63,633 nucleotides of DNA from Brachyspira innocens ATCC 29796 (GTDB lineage: Bacteria; Spirochaetota; Brachyspiria; Brachyspirales; Brachyspiraceae): assembly GCF_000384655.1 (NCBI RefSeq), contig NZ_ARQI01000116.1, positions 1 through 63,633 of the forward strand, given 5' to 3'. Below are positions 46,993-53,093 of the stretch, piece by piece. Under the pieces are notes generated by a model. The model did not search any database. It was not told the DNA's origin and was given only the letters and a program-made list of their open reading frames with translations. Position 1 is the first letter of the stretch. The number at the start of each line of letters is the position of its first letter. The position numbers were made by a program, and so were the translations under genes.

Positions 46993-48684
46993 ATGGAACA
47001 AGAAGTAAAAGCAAGAATAGATTCATGGCTTAACGGTCCATATGATGAAGAAACAAAGAAAGAAATTAAAGCATTATTAGATGCAGGAAATGAAAAAGAA
47101 TTAACCGATGCGTTTTACAGGGATTTAGAGTTTGGTACTGGCGGACTTAGAGGTATAATGGGAGTTGGTACTAACAGAATGAATAAATATACTGTTGGAG
47201 TTGCTACTCAGGGACTTGCTAATTATATATTAAAACAAGGAGGAAGTGATTATAAAGTTGCTATAGGCTATGATTCAAGAAATAATTCTGATGTATTTTC
47301 AAAAGCTGCTGCTGAGATACTTTCTTCAAATGGTATAAAAGTTTATTTATATGATGATATTCACCCTATTTCACTTCTTTCTTATGCTGTTAGAAGTTTG
47401 GGCTGTATTGCTGGAATAGTTGTTACTGCAAGCCATAACCCTAAAGAATATAATGGTTATAAAGTTTATTGGACTGACGGTGCTCAAGTTATACCGCCTC
47501 ATGACAAAAACATAATAGATGAAGTATTAAAAGTTAAGCCTGAAGAAGTAAAAATGGGTGATAATTCTAGAGTAACATTTATAGGAAAAGACATTGAAGA
47601 TAAATATATGAATGATTTGATGAACTATCTAGTTAATCCAGATTTGATAAAAAAACACAGCAATATAAAAATAGTTTATACTCCTATTCATGGTTCTGGA
47701 TACAAAATGGTTCCTATGGCATTAAGAAAAGCAGGATTCACCAATCTAACAACATTAGAAGGTGCTCAGCCTCCAGACGGAAATTTCCCTACTGTAGAAT
47801 CTCCTAACCCAGAAAACCCTGAGGCATTGCAGATAGCAGTTAATAAAGCCAAAGAAATAGGTGCTGAACTTGTTATGGGTACTGATCCAGACTGCGATAG
47901 AATGGGTTGTGCTTTGCTTACTAAAGATGGAAGCTATATGTATCTCACAGGTAATCAAATAGGCTCTATAATGGCATACTACCTCATTACAAACAAAAAA
48001 AATATTAAAAATCCGTACATAGTAAAAACAATAGTAACTACTGAGCTTGCGAGGGCTATTACTGATGCTAATAATGTTAAACTTTATGATGTACTTACTG
48101 GTTTTAAATGGATTGCTGATGTTATAGAAAGAGATAAAGAAGGAACATATCTATTTGGATTTGAAGAGAGTTTCGGATATTGTATTAATTCAAATGTACG
48201 CGATAAAGATGGTGTTAGTTCTTGTTTGATGCTTGCGGAAGTACTTGCTTATTGTAAAGAAAACAATATTACTTTGGCTGATTATTTAGAAAGCATTTAT
48301 GAAAAATACGGATATTTCTATGAAGAGACTATCTCTATTACAAAAAAAGGTGCTGACGGAGCTAAAGCCATAGCTGATTTGATGACTTATTATAGAGATA
48401 ATTTACCTAAAGAAATTTCAGGTGTTCAGGTAGAAACTATAAGCGACTATGAGAAAAAAGAAGTTTATGATAATACAGGTAAAAAAATAAAAGACATCAC
48501 TCTTCCAAAATCTAATGTACTTCAATACATACTTGCAGATAAGACAAAAATTACTATAAGACCTTCTGGTACTGAACCTAAAATAAAATTCTATTTTGAG
48601 GTTTGCGTAAAAGAAAGCAAAGATAAGAGACTTGCTGTAGCCAAAGAAAAAGTGGCTAATTTCAAAAAGTTTATTAAAGAATAA
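46993..48684 (+). CDS. Alpha-D-phosphohexomutase (phosphoglucomutase/phosphomannomutase)
   Basis: The 563-residue protein has the phosphoserine loop TASHNPKEYNG (Ser147), the magnesium loop GTDPDCDRMG, the sugar-binding loop FGFEESFGY and the phosphate-binding IRPSGTEPKIKFYFE. It interconverts hexose 1- and 6-phosphates. The length fits the PgcA-like long class. GAGGTG precedes ATG 46993; a start 3 codons earlier is less likely. Confidence 0.93.
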   Translation: MEQEVKARIDSWLNGPYDEETKKEIKALLDAGNEKELTDAFYRDLEFGTGGLRGIMGVGTNRMNKYTVGVATQGLANYILKQGGSDYKVAIGYDSRNNSDVFSKAAAEILSSNGIKVYLYDDIHPISLLSYAVRSLGCIAGIVVTASHNPKEYNGYKVYWTDGAQVIPPHDKNIIDEVLKVKPEEVKMGDNSRVTFIGKDIEDKYMNDLMNYLVNPDLIKKHSNIKIVYTPIHGSGYKMVPMALRKAGFTNLTTLEGAQPPDGNFPTVESPNPENPEALQIAVNKAKEIGAELVMGTDPDCDRMGCALLTKDGSYMYLTGNQIGSIMAYYLITNKKNIKNPYIVKTIVTTELARAITDANNVKLYDVLTGFKWIADVIERDKEGTYLFGFEESFGYCINSNVRDKDGVSSCLMLAEVLAYCKENNITLADYLESIYEKYGYFYEETISITKKGADGAKAIADLMTYYRDNLPKEISGVQVETISDYEKKEVYDNTGKKIKDITLPKSNVLQYILADKTKITIRPSGTEPKIKFYFEVCVKESKDKRLAVAKEKVANFKKFIKE

Positions 48685-48706
48685 TTTTTATTAGTAATAA
48701 TAAATA

Positions 48707-48743
48707 AAAGAAGTCCTATTTTTTAATGGGGCTTCTTTTTTAT
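48707..48743 (+). terminator. Terminator after the phosphohexomutase gene
   Basis: AAGAAGTCCTATT pairs with AATGGGGCTTCTT (two G-T pairs) and is followed by T residues. Confidence 0.85.
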
Positions 48744-48810
48744 GCGACATTTTTTGTCATAGCAAGAAAGTATAATATATATAATTTGATAATCATATTA
48801 AGGAGATTAT

Positions 48811-49485
48811 ATGAAAAAAATTATTATATTATTAAATTTTTTACTAACTTTTATAATAAGCTGTTCAGGTAATTATGTAAGTGTAAGCAATGAACAAACA
48901 GGTACAGATATATCTGTGGGAAAAATTACTGCTTCAGAAATGACTATATACACAAATAATTTAAAAAAAAGTAAAATGCCAAAAATAATTATTTACTTAA
49001 ATCAAAAATTAGAAATTGATAAAACTCAATTAGTAAGCGTATCAAATAATCAAAATTTAAATTTTAATATTGCAGATTTTACATTAGAGAAGAATGAAAC
49101 TTTTTATGAAAAAGGAGTTAAAATAAACTTAAGATCAAACTCTTTTTATAAAATAACAAATATGCAGACTAATGCTTTTAATTTATATTTTAAATTAAAA
49201 AGTACATTTACAAATGAAAATATAGAAAATAAAGAAATATTATATGATGTCAATGTGAAAGCTAAAATGACAAAAACTTCTTTATTATTAACTATAATAA
49301 AATGGATATTTATAGTAATTTTAGGAATTTTATTCTTTCCATTTATATTGCTTGTTTCTATGTTTATATACCCAATAAGAACCAGCAGCGGATTTTTTCT
49401 TGCTATTATATTGCCTTTTATTTACTATCCTATTTTATTTTTTATTATAAAATTAGTTCTTAATTTTTTTGATGAACACAGATAG
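48811..49485 (+). CDS. Lipoprotein with C-terminal membrane helices
   Basis: The 224-residue protein has a signal and lipobox TFIISC (Cys18), a beta-rich middle (about 25-155) and two or three hydrophobic helices at the end (about 158-218). A lipoprotein that also crosses the membrane is unusual. AAGGAG precedes the ATG. No family recognised. Confidence 0.68.
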   Translation: MKKIIILLNFLLTFIISCSGNYVSVSNEQTGTDISVGKITASEMTIYTNNLKKSKMPKIIIYLNQKLEIDKTQLVSVSNNQNLNFNIADFTLEKNETFYEKGVKINLRSNSFYKITNMQTNAFNLYFKLKSTFTNENIENKEILYDVNVKAKMTKTSLLLTIIKWIFIVILGILFFPFILLVSMFIYPIRTSSGFFLAIILPFIYYPILFFIIKLVLNFFDEHR

Positions 49486-49519
49486 AAATTATAAGAAGTA
49501 TAATAATTATTTACTTTAA

Positions 49520-49555
49520 TATAAAAGTCTCATTATTTAATGGGGCTTTTATATT
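49520..49555 (+). terminator. Terminator after the lipoprotein gene
   Basis: AAAAGTCTCATT pairs with AATGGGGCTTTT around a short AT-rich loop, followed by a T-rich run. Confidence 0.75.
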
Positions 49556-49574
49556 TTTTAACTTTATTCTAACT

Positions 49575-49887
49575 CCCACCCATTTTAATTGAAAATTTTT
49601 CTTTGTTATTATTGTATACTTTTTCTTTATTTACTTTTACTGTTATTATGATGCCCGCCCTAGCTTTATTTAAACTTATAATCATCACAACGCACGTTAA
49701 GCTAAATTTATAAATATAAACTCATTAGAAATTCTAATTTTAATTATATATAAAATTCCGCTGACCGTGCGTTGAATAAAGTTTTAAACTTAATAAAAAC
49801 TTGGGTGGGTGCCTTAATTTTTAATTAGACTATAAAAATAATAAAAATTAAAATTTTAAAATAAAACAATAAAATATAAAGGGTGGG
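49575..49887. repeat. Nested inverted-repeat element
   Basis: CCCACCC (49575-49581) is mirrored by GGGTGGG at 49803-49809 and again at 49881-49887. Inside, CAACGCACG (49688-49696) is mirrored by CGTGCGTTG (49766-49774). These GC-rich arms stand out in AT-rich DNA. There is no ORF. The layout suggests a small mobile element or an extended RNA or DNA structure. Confidence 0.5.
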
Positions 49888-49922
49888 TATGTAAATAAAA
49901 TTTTATTAATTAAAAAGAATAT

Positions 49923-50816
49923 CTACTTTTTTAAATAATCTTTCCATTTTTCTGGAAATCCTATATGAACAAAATCTATATCATTTTTATATTCATCAAT
50001 AAGTTTAATAAAATTTGATAATATTTCATTATTCCACTTTTCTTTAAAAGGATATAATTCTTTAACTGATAATATAGCTCCCCATAACTTTCTCTCAGAA
50101 TTATTATCTAAATTATTCATTCCTTTTGGAATAGATGGAAAAATTCTATAATAAAGTCTCCCATAATGAGCACAAATATTTCTTAAGTCCGTACAGCAAT
50201 GAAGCCAACTTTCTAATTTATAAGCCGTAATATTATACATATCCTTTGCTAATATTTTCTGATCCTCTAATTTCAAATTAGCAAAAAAAGTTGATAACAT
50301 ACCAAAAGTAAATATTTTTGTTGCTGCCCATATTGGAAAATTAGAATTATATTTATCTATATAATGTTTAATGAATAATACTTTATTATTATTTTTTACT
50401 TCTCTTTTAAATTTTTCTATAAATTTTTTATGATACTCTATCTTTTTATTTATATATTTTAAATCATCATTTTTATTATAAAAATTTGTTTCATCTAAAT
50501 ATCCTAATGCTCCATATTTATGAACATGATAATATGATATTTTAGCACGAATAAAAATATATATCTCTTCTAATGCATTAAATAATATAGTATGCAGTTT
50601 TCTATCAAACTCATAAATATTAAAAACTTTTTCAAATGAAGTACCATTAATATAACTTCCGTTACTTTGTTTTAAAGGTAAAAAATAAGCACTAAAATGA
50701 TAATAATTTACTGATTCAAGTATAGATATACATTTTTTATCATCATTAATAATACAGCCTCTATCTTTTAATTTTTGAAGCTGTTCTTCATATTTATAAG
50801 TATGTTTTATATCCAT
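49923..50816 (-). CDS. Abi_2 (AbiD/AbiF) family HEPN protein, probable toxin
   Basis: The 297-residue protein starts with the family pattern YKYEEQLQKLKDRGCII (residues 8-24), then NYYHFSAYFLPL and the C-terminal HEPN motif LRNICAHYGRL with R212 and H217 (R-x4-H). A second possible R-x6-H pair is R90-H97. Abi_2 proteins cause abortive infection, and HEPN pairs are RNA-cutting sites; AbiF-like proteins have been linked to the origin of Cas13 and to RNA antitoxins. ATG 50816 is chosen because an earlier GTG (50855) falls inside the upstream hairpin; no clear Shine-Dalgarno site is seen. A consensus promoter and hairpin RNA lie just before it. Confidence 0.87.
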   Translation of the reverse strand: MDIKHTYKYEEQLQKLKDRGCIINDDKKCISILESVNYYHFSAYFLPLKQSNGSYINGTSFEKVFNIYEFDRKLHTILFNALEEIYIFIRAKISYYHVHKYGALGYLDETNFYNKNDDLKYINKKIEYHKKFIEKFKREVKNNNKVLFIKHYIDKYNSNFPIWAATKIFTFGMLSTFFANLKLEDQKILAKDMYNITAYKLESWLHCCTDLRNICAHYGRLYYRIFPSIPKGMNNLDNNSERKLWGAILSVKELYPFKEKWNNEILSNFIKLIDEYKNDIDFVHIGFPEKWKDYLKK

Positions 50817-50831
50817 AAAATAACCATAAAT

Positions 50832-50885
50832 AAAAAATGTCCCCCAATGGTCCACATCATCAAGTGACGTGCAGGGGGTACTGTT
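50832..50885 (-). ncRNA. Hairpin RNA with U-run upstream of the Abi_2 gene, antitoxin candidate
   Basis: From the predicted start at about 50885 the RNA has a 5-bp CCCCC / GGGGG clamp (50874-50878 with 50841-50845). Between the clamp strands, GTC / GAC and AC / GT pair around a TTGATGAT loop. Three bases after the clamp comes a run of six U (50832-50837), the form of a Rho-independent terminator. The product would be an RNA of about 50 bases, with the toxin made only by read-through. This is the layout of toxins with RNA antitoxins. Confidence 0.6.
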
Positions 50886-50891
50886 AATATA

Positions 50892-50919
50892 ATTATATAT
50901 TATATGATGTTTTTGTCAA
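50892..50919 (-). promoter_or_regulatory. Perfect sigma70 promoter for the hairpin RNA and Abi_2 gene
   Basis: On the minus strand TTGACA (50914-50919), a 16-base spacer and TATAAT (50892-50897) place the start just before the hairpin. Few promoters in this window match the consensus so exactly. Confidence 0.85.
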
Positions 50920-51002
50920 TATTAAATCAGAATATTTTATTTAAAATAAATTACTATAGTGTGATTTTTTATTTGTATAAAAATACTAAAATATATAAAA
51001 AA

Positions 51003-53093
51003 CTATTCATCTTTAACTATTCTTGATTTTAGATAATTAGCTTTCAATATAAACGCTTCATTTTCTTTGTAAAAAGTTTCTTTTGAGTTTTCATCTTTAA
51101 GTAAAGAACGCATTTCATCTTTGGCCTTACGCATTATTTCTTTATCTTTTATGATGTTTCCAAGTTTGAAATCTGGAATACCGCTTTGCTTATCGCCTAA
51201 AAACTCTCCAGCCCCTCTTAATTCAAGATCTTTTTCTGATATTTTAAATCCGTCAGTAGTTTCGCATATTATATTAATTCTCTCTTTTATAATGTCATTA
51301 AGTTCGCTGTGTAGTATAAGATAACAGTAGCCCAATTTATCACCTCTTCCCACTCGTCCGCGTAACTGATGAAGCTGTGATAAACCAAAACGCTCAGCTC
51401 CTTCAATTAATATAGTTGTGGCATTTGGATTATCAATACCTACTTCTATTACAGTAGTTGAAAATAGTACTTTTATCTCTCCTTTTGCAAATCTGTTCAT
51501 TATATATTCTTTTTCTTCGTCTTTCATTTTTCCATGTATCATTTCTATTTGAATATCTGAAAAGTATGTTTCTTTAGCTCTCTGAAACTCACTTGAAAGA
51601 GTTATAAAACTAGAATCATTATTTTCTATGAGTGGAAAAACAACATATCCCTGTTCTCCTTTTGATATTCTGTTTTTTAAGAATTTATAGCAATGATCTC
51701 TTTCATAAAGCTCTTTATATTTTGTAAGTACTCCTTTTCTTGAGCTAGGAAGAGTTTTTATAATTGATAAATCCAATTCTCCAAATAATGTTAATGCCAA
51801 TGACTGAGGGATAGGGGTTGCAGTCATAAGAAGATAATCAACATTTTTTCCTTTTGATAGTAGTTTATTTCTTTGGGCAACTCCAAATCTCTGCTGTTCA
51901 TCTACTATTGCATAAGAAAGATTTTTAAATATTACCTCATCATAAATAATAGAATGCGTTCCAACTAATATATTGCTTTTACCTTCTCTAAGTCTTTTTA
52001 ATAAATATCCTCTTTCGCTTTGACTTACAGAAGAGGTGAGTATATCTATTTTTATAGTATCTTCAAGTCCAGCTAATTTAATAATTTTTTTGAAAGTATT
52101 ATAATGCTGTATAGCCAGTATTTCGGTGGGTGCTAAAAATGCTGTTTGAAATCCAGATTCTATTGGTATCAATGCTGTTAAAAATGCCACTATAGTTTTA
52201 CCAGCTCCTACATCTCCTTGAAGAAGTCTAAACATTTGCTTTTTTGAAAATAAATCATTTTTTATTTCGTTTATAGCATTTAATTGATCTTCGGTAAGTT
52301 CAAAAGGAAGAGCAGATTTTACTTTTTCAAGCAGATTTGAAGAATTATATCTTTCATCTTTTATTAAAATATTAGGTCTTCTCTCACTTAAATGTATATA
52401 CTGAAAAGTTAGAAACTCTTCAAAAATTAAACTCTCTCTAGCTTCATCAAGAGCTTCAAATGATGTAGGAAAATGCATCTCCATAATAGAAGGAACAAAA
52501 CTTTTGAGTCTGTATTTTTTTTTAATAATGCTTGGTATATCATATTTCATATTTTTTTCAAATACTTCAAGCTCATCTACGATTAGAGTTCTTAACTTTT
52601 TTTGAGAAAGCCCTTCAGTAAGAGGATATATTGGAACTATCTTGCCATATGATAATGCATTTGAAGAAGGCTTTTCAAACTCTGTCATTCTGCATTGAAG
52701 TTTTCCTCTGTTTCCTCTTACAAACTTTCCAGTTAAATATAATTTAGCTCCTTTAGTAACTCCAGCGGGAAGTCTTCCGCTGTAAATAGGTACTTCGCAT
52801 ATTGCAGCTCCATCTGTAACTATAACTAAAGGTTTATTTTTATACTGAAAATTAAAAGAGGATATATCAAGAACTTCTACATATACAACACTTGTTTTTT
52901 CTTTATTTTCTAATGCCTCATGAAGTTTCAGCGTTTTTCTTCTGTCATCATAGGTTCTTGGAAAAAAAGCTATTAAATCATATAGTGTTTCTATTCCTTT
53001 TTTTGCTAATATTTCTGCGTATTTAGGACCTACACCCTTTGAATATTTAATACTTTTAGTAAAAATTTCTTTGCTGTAATCACTTTTTTGCAA
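51003..53093 (-). CDS. recG: RecG ATP-dependent DNA helicase
   Basis: The 696-residue protein has the wedge/OB region (about 60-150), Walker A LLQGDVGAGKTIVAFL (near 292-307), Walker B VDEQQRFGVAQR, motif III MTATPIPQSLALT and the late LHQLRGRVGRGDKLGYC. It remodels stalled replication forks and Holliday junctions. DEQQ in place of the more usual DEQH is a small variation. It lies 22 bases after the DUF1232 gene. Confidence 0.96.
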   Translation of the reverse strand: MQKSDYSKEIFTKSIKYSKGVGPKYAEILAKKGIETLYDLIAFFPRTYDDRRKTLKLHEALENKEKTSVVYVEVLDISSFNFQYKNKPLVIVTDGAAICEVPIYSGRLPAGVTKGAKLYLTGKFVRGNRGKLQCRMTEFEKPSSNALSYGKIVPIYPLTEGLSQKKLRTLIVDELEVFEKNMKYDIPSIIKKKYRLKSFVPSIMEMHFPTSFEALDEARESLIFEEFLTFQYIHLSERRPNILIKDERYNSSNLLEKVKSALPFELTEDQLNAINEIKNDLFSKKQMFRLLQGDVGAGKTIVAFLTALIPIESGFQTAFLAPTEILAIQHYNTFKKIIKLAGLEDTIKIDILTSSVSQSERGYLLKRLREGKSNILVGTHSIIYDEVIFKNLSYAIVDEQQRFGVAQRNKLLSKGKNVDYLLMTATPIPQSLALTLFGELDLSIIKTLPSSRKGVLTKYKELYERDHCYKFLKNRISKGEQGYVVFPLIENNDSSFITLSSEFQRAKETYFSDIQIEMIHGKMKDEEKEYIMNRFAKGEIKVLFSTTVIEVGIDNPNATTILIEGAERFGLSQLHQLRGRVGRGDKLGYCYLILHSELNDIIKERINIICETTDGFKISEKDLELRGAGEFLGDKQSGIPDFKLGNIIKDKEIMRKAKDEMRSLLKDENSKETFYKENEAFILKANYLKSRIVKDE

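Follow-up and report, generated by a model that had tools for sequence, protein, structure and literature searches.

A predicted hairpin RNA antitoxin precedes an AbiF-type HEPN toxin gene on the chromosome of Brachyspira innocens

The stretch of DNA analysed here (the window) is a 63,633-nucleotide contig of Brachyspira innocens ATCC 29796. On its minus strand, directly 3´ of recG (51003–53093), it carries a locus that is, with high confidence, a chromosomal AbiF-type toxin–antitoxin unit with an RNA antitoxin. The locus brings together a promoter at a conserved distance from a covarying hairpin RNA, a U-run and a gene whose product has the AbiF fold and an intact catalytic motif, and these parts are conserved together in related loci. 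The RNA-antitoxin mechanism is established for the AbiF family and very probably operates at this locus too.

In the proposed mechanism, a single promoter would drive the synthesis of a hairpin RNA of ~53 nt, starting with 5´-ACAG and mostly terminating at a run of six U residues (U6). Occasional read-through would yield the abiF mRNA, with incomplete termination at the 3´ end of the RNA itself setting a large excess of that RNA. AbiF would act as a dimeric HEPN ribonuclease, and the abundant small RNA would bind it in trans and block its activity. Should a phage infection, for instance, disturb this balance, unbound AbiF would cleave RNA and growth would stop, a putative phage defence.

All the elements of the unit lie on the minus strand. 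A sigma-70-type promoter, TTGACA-16-TATAAT, occupies positions 50892–50919, with TTGACA at 50919–50914, a 16-nt spacer and TATAAT at 50897–50892. Exact matches to TTGACA-N16–18-TATAAT occur three times in the 63.6-kb window, the abiF promoter being one of them, while 0.18 are expected from shuffles. The promoter is followed by a predicted AbiF-associated RNA of ~53 nt, the putative antitoxin (50832–50884), which runs from 5´-ACAG through U6 and is supported by a match to the covariance model R1, by covariation and by folding. The toxin gene, abiF/abiD of the Abi_2 family (49923–50816), encodes 297 amino acids from the ATG at 50816 to the TAG stop at 49925–49923, and includes the HEPN catalytic motif RNICAH (50166–50183; residues 212–217, R212–H217). 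This ATG is the likely start, its equivalent being common to close relatives; an upstream GTG at 50855, which would open a longer reading frame, falls within the hairpin and was rejected. Between the U-run and the ATG (50816–50831), a Shine–Dalgarno sequence is not evident, in contrast to several viral relatives, and the translation of the read-through abiF mRNA may be poor.

Just 3´ of the toxin gene there is an AT-rich intergenic repeat element (49640–49910, minus strand) with 85 matches in its own genome, on both strands and several of them clustered. A reading of the surroundings as a defence island was rejected, as PADLOC gave the four adjoining proteins helicase-type matches to RecG alone and found no other defence gene among them.

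The hairpin itself (50841–50878) is clamped by CCCCC at 50878–50874, paired with GGGGG at 50845–50841. Within this outer stem of five pairs, which continues into a U–U mismatch at the sixth, lies an inner stem of seven pairs (50871–50865 with 50859–50853), joined on its 3´ side by a linker at 50852–50846. The predicted 5´ end of the RNA, A50884, is 6 nt 5´ of the clamp, and the trinucleotide ACA separates the hairpin from U6 (50837–50832). The hairpin and U6 together also read as an intrinsic terminator, while a simple terminator scan of the window did not include them among its calls, presumably because of the bulges. The minimum-energy and centroid folds of the RNA agree. Folded alone, the hairpin is modestly better than chance: a 71-nt sequence gave a z of −1.66, with 14 of 200 shuffles equally good, and a 54-nt sequence a z of −2.33, with 8 of 200 equally good. 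It is the comparison of related sequences that makes the predicted hairpin secure.

The upstream sequences were first compared by eye in nine Brachyspira loci and in viral loci. Of 131 candidate stretches from a viral scan, 87 encoded a relative, and the best 80 of these were kept; a single-protein viral scan with the protein of locus L032 returned no relative, and a scan of genome contigs gave four loci. A larger first seed alignment was discarded because MAFFT had misplaced a bulge gap. Six viral seed sequences, none of them from Brachyspira, then served to build the covariance model R1, which was searched against the window and 66 of 120 loci (67 sources, 287 kb, both strands, E up to 10). 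Matches were found in 41 of the 67 sources, six of the 41 being the model's own seeds, and all 41 end 16–64 nt before the start of an Abi_2 gene or of an Abi_2 match. The window is matched at 50838–50884 with an E-value of 0.001. No match was obtained in the other 26 sources (L012–L015, L017, L020–L022, L031, L033, L035, L039, L057, L061, L074, L083, L090, L094–L096, L111, L113, L114, L117–L119), which include loci with an RNA of the Clostridioides difficile RCd22 type and a second class of Brachyspira loci, class B. One of them, L012, comes from another spirochaete family (genome G059); upstream of its AbiF gene, at ~1340–1405, a stretch resembling a promoter is accompanied by a hairpin of another kind, seemingly branched and ending in U7, which R1 does not match.

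Covariation was evaluated in an alignment fitted to the model (A6), which holds 39 of 40 sources, L074 having no match, and 38 distinct sequences. Compensatory changes in the stem, which the sequence-only reading of this DNA had proposed to look for among homologues, are present as double changes in 8 of the 9 pairs, and 98.2% of the cells pair. Doubly changed cells number 55, where shuffles give 11.1. The score for covariation reaches 0.511, compared with 0.172 when shuffled and at most 0.098 with the partner strand slid. Brachyspira sequences alone are too few for this purpose: with seven distinct sequences and small counts, 140 of 500 shuffles reach the observed number of double-change pairs. 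Conservation extends to unpaired parts: ACAG at the 5´ end, a 3´ bulge (for instance ACCA or CCCA) and, in many sequences, a loop reading CUCU. The same hairpin is found on plasmids, in Aneurinibacillus (L202, E 2.9e-7), Exiguobacterium (L203, E 1.4e-8) and Lactococcus lactis (L200, E 0.024), and R1 has no match in L201, from L. cremoris.

The anatomy of transcription is equally shared. A promoter with at least 9 of 12 consensus positions lies upstream of the RNA in 38 of the 39 loci, compared with a mean of 6.5% and at most 18% of upstream sequences after shuffling of single bases, in counts that are not independent since the 39 loci are related. The −10 element is 7 nt from the start of the RNA in 32 of the 39 loci and 8 nt in another 5; given this regular spacing before ACAG or its equivalent, ACAG is therefore probably the 5´ end of the RNA. 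At least five U residues occur within the 8 nt directly 3´ of the hairpin in 37 of the 39, and in the other two, L046 and L089, a second hairpin further downstream ends in a U-rich tail, as read by eye. Thus, both the consensus promoter and the CCCCC/GGGGG-clamped hairpin with U6 placed before the gene by the sequence-only reading have held up, the hairpin through the R1 match, the covariation and the U-tail.

These features are shared with an alternative in which the hairpin is a transcription attenuator only, limiting toxin mRNA in cis, with the short RNA as a by-product devoid of antitoxin activity. The U-tail, or the separate terminator-like hairpin replacing it, is what such an attenuator would need, and there is a precedent in L. 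lactis. A 50-base abiD1 transcript is reported to end at a terminator that immediately precedes the gene, and the phage protein Orf1 to bind the abiD1 leader and activate translation (PMC2661086), so that abiD1 has been explained by termination together with translational activation by Orf1; the short, prematurely terminated transcript is also mentioned in PMC12373285. However, a plain terminator does not need the conserved ACAG, CUCU loop and 3´ bulge, and the inner stem and bulge are retained in L046 and L089 despite their separate terminator. Furthermore, RCd22 acts in trans and binds AbiF (PMC12373285). Attenuation alone is thus an unlikely explanation, and an RNA antitoxin that also ends its own transcript is preferred.

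The relation of this RNA to the published abiF RNA family, Rfam RF03085, is indirect. An assignment of the window RNA to RF03085 was rejected, as the model gave no match to the window at E up to 10 and its gathering threshold was not reached; a DLEU2_4 match to the window, far under its own cut-off, was taken as chance. Eight other Abi_2 loci had no RF03085 match at E up to 5. In the genome of the strain, 150 of 1166 first-look candidates were scored, which makes that search a weak test. Among 20 AbiF loci, RF03085 matched two above its cut-off (L112, and L061 of the RCd22 type) and two below it (L109 and L075). L112, L109 and L075 are also matched by R1 and are therefore intermediates common to both models, and R1 misses the RCd22-type loci L031, L061, L083 and L090. 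The RF03085 consensus has an outer stem of 6, a 5´ linker of 1 nt, an inner stem of 3 bp and a 3´ bulge of 6, and RNAs of the window branch have the same hairpin architecture (an outer stem, a 1-nt 5´ linker, a 3-bp inner stem and a 5–6-nt 3´ bulge). Judged from sequence comparison, the window RNA is connected to RF03085 through intermediates and shared architecture, yet it lies outside the family as modelled now. The public model overlooks many well-supported relatives, and surveys relying on RF03085 can be expected to undercount AbiF systems.

The identity of the toxin gene is clear. Its product matches Pfam Abi_2 (PF07751) with an E-value of 3e-49 and 168.3 bits (curated cut-off 25.6), matches the PADLOC AbiD model at 3.9e-95, and is the one Abi_2 match in its own genome. 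Among the named records found, its closest relative is a protein of B. hampsonii 30446 (95% identical), while AbiF of the C. difficile phage phiC2 shares 38.9% identity over 100% of the length. The predicted structure (pLDDT 94.5) is closest, among solved structures, to the complex of PbAbiF with its ncRNA (8vz6), which it matches over 280 residues with an rmsd of 2.6 and a Z of 25.2. ToxN-like folds were absent from the structural matches, which is not evidence of a difference. R212, N213, A216 and H217 of RNICAH are invariant across a 35-sequence alignment. The motif aligns with RNSCCH of 8vz6, has the same spacing as RNQCAH of C. difficile AbiF (AbiFCd), and falls at the positions of R202/H207 in AbiFCd and R210/H215 in PbAbiF. 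In this way, the family assignment and the HEPN motif suggested from the letters of the DNA are borne out.

Kinship with Cas13 had likewise been suggested, and a relationship between Cas13 and AbiD/F is published (PMC12165695). In our structural search, Cas13d chains came next after 8vz6, with Z-scores of 6.5–7.5, values that may reflect a mere common arrangement. Reading the locus itself as a Cas13/CRISPR system was rejected, the protein having 297 amino acids and one family-wide R-x4-H, and the 4 kb examined (48500–52500) holding no CRISPR array. A possible second R-x6-H pair (R90...H97) stood in part: it is invariant in the nine close Brachyspira proteins, but its columns are neither invariant nor nearly so in the 35-sequence alignment, and it was rejected as a second catalytic pair for the family.

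The dN/dS ratio over positions 49926–50816 (minus strand) is 0.67 and 0.54 when the window AbiF is compared with each of its two nearest relatives, estimates based on few substitutions, while five other pairs give 0.08–0.35. The raised values could reflect relaxed or diversifying selection, or small numbers.

In relatives of the locus, toxicity, an RNA antitoxin, binding of the RNA and expression by read-through have been demonstrated. RCd22 is reported to repress and neutralise AbiFCd in cis and in trans and to bind it, and its deletion to raise abiF expression 17-fold (PMC12373285). In the same study, Saunier et al. report that mutation of R202/H207 in the RNQCAH motif of AbiFCd abolishes toxicity, and that phiC2 AbiF is 99.88% identical to AbiFCd (PMC12373285). 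The AbiFCd–RCd22 pair, encoded by the phi027 prophage, resembles the window locus in the order of promoter, RNA, terminator and toxin, in the hairpin architecture and in the HEPN motif. They differ in that RCd22 measures 88–132 nt, contains two abiF motifs and has a distinct hairpin as its terminator, whereas the window RNA is one ~53-nt hairpin with its own U-run; the RNA sequences are divergent, and the window unit adjoins recG whereas AbiFCd sits in a phage lysis module.

An RNA antitoxin for AbiF is also reported in Prevotellaceae, as PbAbiF–AbiFr (Zilberzwige-Tal et al. 2025, as cited in PMC12737573 and PMC12373285); C32 and U38 are named as bulge nucleotides of AbiFr (PMC12737573). PbAbiF shares with the window protein the closest solved fold, an aligned RNxxxH motif and a reported ncRNA partner, but the two proteins are 25% identical and the comparison stands at the level of protein, not RNA. 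Type III toxin–antitoxin systems, such as ToxIN, are similar in having an RNA antitoxin in excess, encoded upstream of the toxin with a terminator between them (PMC12373285). However, their antitoxin is a tandem-repeat array and their toxin another protein, whereas the window locus has a single hairpin, the repeat families at 48500–52500 all being two-copy, and an HEPN AbiF toxin. As for the claim that the short RNA is the antitoxin and that termination sets the RNA:toxin ratio, this is published for AbiFCd and RCd22 (PMC12373285), and for the Brachyspira locus we infer it.

Within the genus, 15 of 26 Brachyspira genomes have an Abi_2 match. The class A RNA (model R2) is found in exactly the 9 of 26 genomes with a class A toxin, one match in each; since R2 was built from eight of its nine genus matches, the independent results are the match in genome G021 and the 17 absences. 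In most genomes, 150 first-look candidates were scored in these RNA scans. The class A unit adjoins the 3´ end of recG in eight of the nine genomes. The recG and AbiF trees of the nine genomes are too poorly resolved to judge vertical descent, and genome G020 groups differently in the two. In at least five genomes that lack the class A toxin (G005, G012, G014, G017 and G023), recG is followed by what appears, by eye, to be a copy of the repeat element found 3´ of the window toxin gene.

A more distant clade of AbiF proteins comes with an RNA class of its own, class B (CCGCAG...GGGCUU...AGCUCACUCUGCGG), which likewise covaries. Four aligned class B AbiF proteins are 26–31% identical to the window protein, and G004 and G021 each carry both clades. 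The class B clade comprises L013–L017, L020–L022 and L025, with the RNA class GGGCUU...AGCUCACU, and the five loci tested from it have no RF03085 match. A class B model, R3, built from seven class B sequences, found no class A, phiC2 or Lactococcus RNA in 19 sources; weaker matches (E above 1e-5) were set aside as unrelated hairpins. Of its ten strong matches, six lie beside intact toxins, three beside broken ones (two in G004 and one in G011), and one, in G024, has no toxin. In this orphan (L137, G024:C8:2120143-2120200), promoter and hairpin are preserved with no toxin gene behind them, and an Abi_2 search of genome G024 found nothing.

Conversely, an RNA accompanies every one of the 15 Brachyspira toxins whose full reading frame is intact, a count that leaves out L023, at a contig edge, and the G012 pseudogene (L018/L024). 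That RNAs remain beside three broken toxins and one absent toxin is what a protective role of the RNA would predict, and this persistence fits an antitoxin role, on few cases and in draft genomes, where stops may be sequencing errors.

The same broken toxins raise a further alternative, that the window cassette is a decaying relic, no longer functional in this genome. Several class B toxins of the genus are broken, dN/dS between the window toxin and its two nearest relatives is raised, and the sixth outer pair is a U–U mismatch. Nevertheless, the window unit retains an intact frame, the invariant HEPN residues and a perfect promoter, and its stem has changed in a compensated manner with respect to the nearest relative (96% amino acid identity), in which outer pair 5 is A–U instead of C–G. 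Decay is, accordingly, very unlikely. A last alternative makes the RNA a riboswitch, or a leader responding to a protein, that governs read-through into abiF and whose chief task is to sense a signal, not to neutralise the toxin. The 5´-leader position would suit this role, and a riboswitch-like idea has been raised for RCd22 (PMC12373285), but the compact single hairpin with agreeing folds, and the persistence of the RNAs beside broken or absent toxins, make it highly improbable.

The evidence is best accommodated by an RNA antitoxin, and the locus adds a new example to a known kind of system. The suggestion that such a compact spirochaete unit might be undescribed therefore divides: the family's mechanism is known already, and what may be undescribed is the divergent, compact RNA together with the host group. 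Neither Brachyspira nor any word beginning with spirochaet- occurs in PMC12373285, no title on a Brachyspira AbiF system was found among the literature matches listed, and the accessible part of a paper on Brachyspira genomes (PMC3532143) has 'abortive infection' solely in a reference title. A divergent RNA branch spanning spirochaetes, viral contigs and Bacillota plasmids, whose ~53-nt hairpin seemingly serves as both antitoxin and terminator, is possibly new, as are RNAs that outlive their toxins, although we do not claim the branch as unpublished. The compact RNA may deserve an RNA family of its own.

The resemblance to L. lactis points to a wider conjecture. AbiD1, whose leader is compared here by its published description, also has a ~50-base transcript ending just upstream of its gene, and the Abi gene of the L. 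lactis plasmid locus L200 has the hairpin of the window with a U9 run; the published reading of abiD1 differs, invoking termination and Orf1-activated translation. Tentatively, and with doubt prevailing, it could be that throughout this AbiF branch of spirochaetes, viral contigs and Bacillota plasmids one ~50-nt hairpin is both antitoxin and intrinsic terminator, that the 50-base abiD1 RNA is an overlooked antitoxin, and that Orf1 is its trigger. If so, the same fold would silence both the toxin protein and the toxin gene, and a phage factor that opened or bound the hairpin would raise toxin synthesis and remove the antidote together.

The locus extends to a spirochaete chromosome an RNA-controlled toxin family from which, according to a published proposal, Cas13 arose. 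It also suggests that the 50-base abiD1 transcript merits a second look. With a compact, self-terminating hairpin of ~50 nt, the question of how a phage trips AbiF becomes testable.
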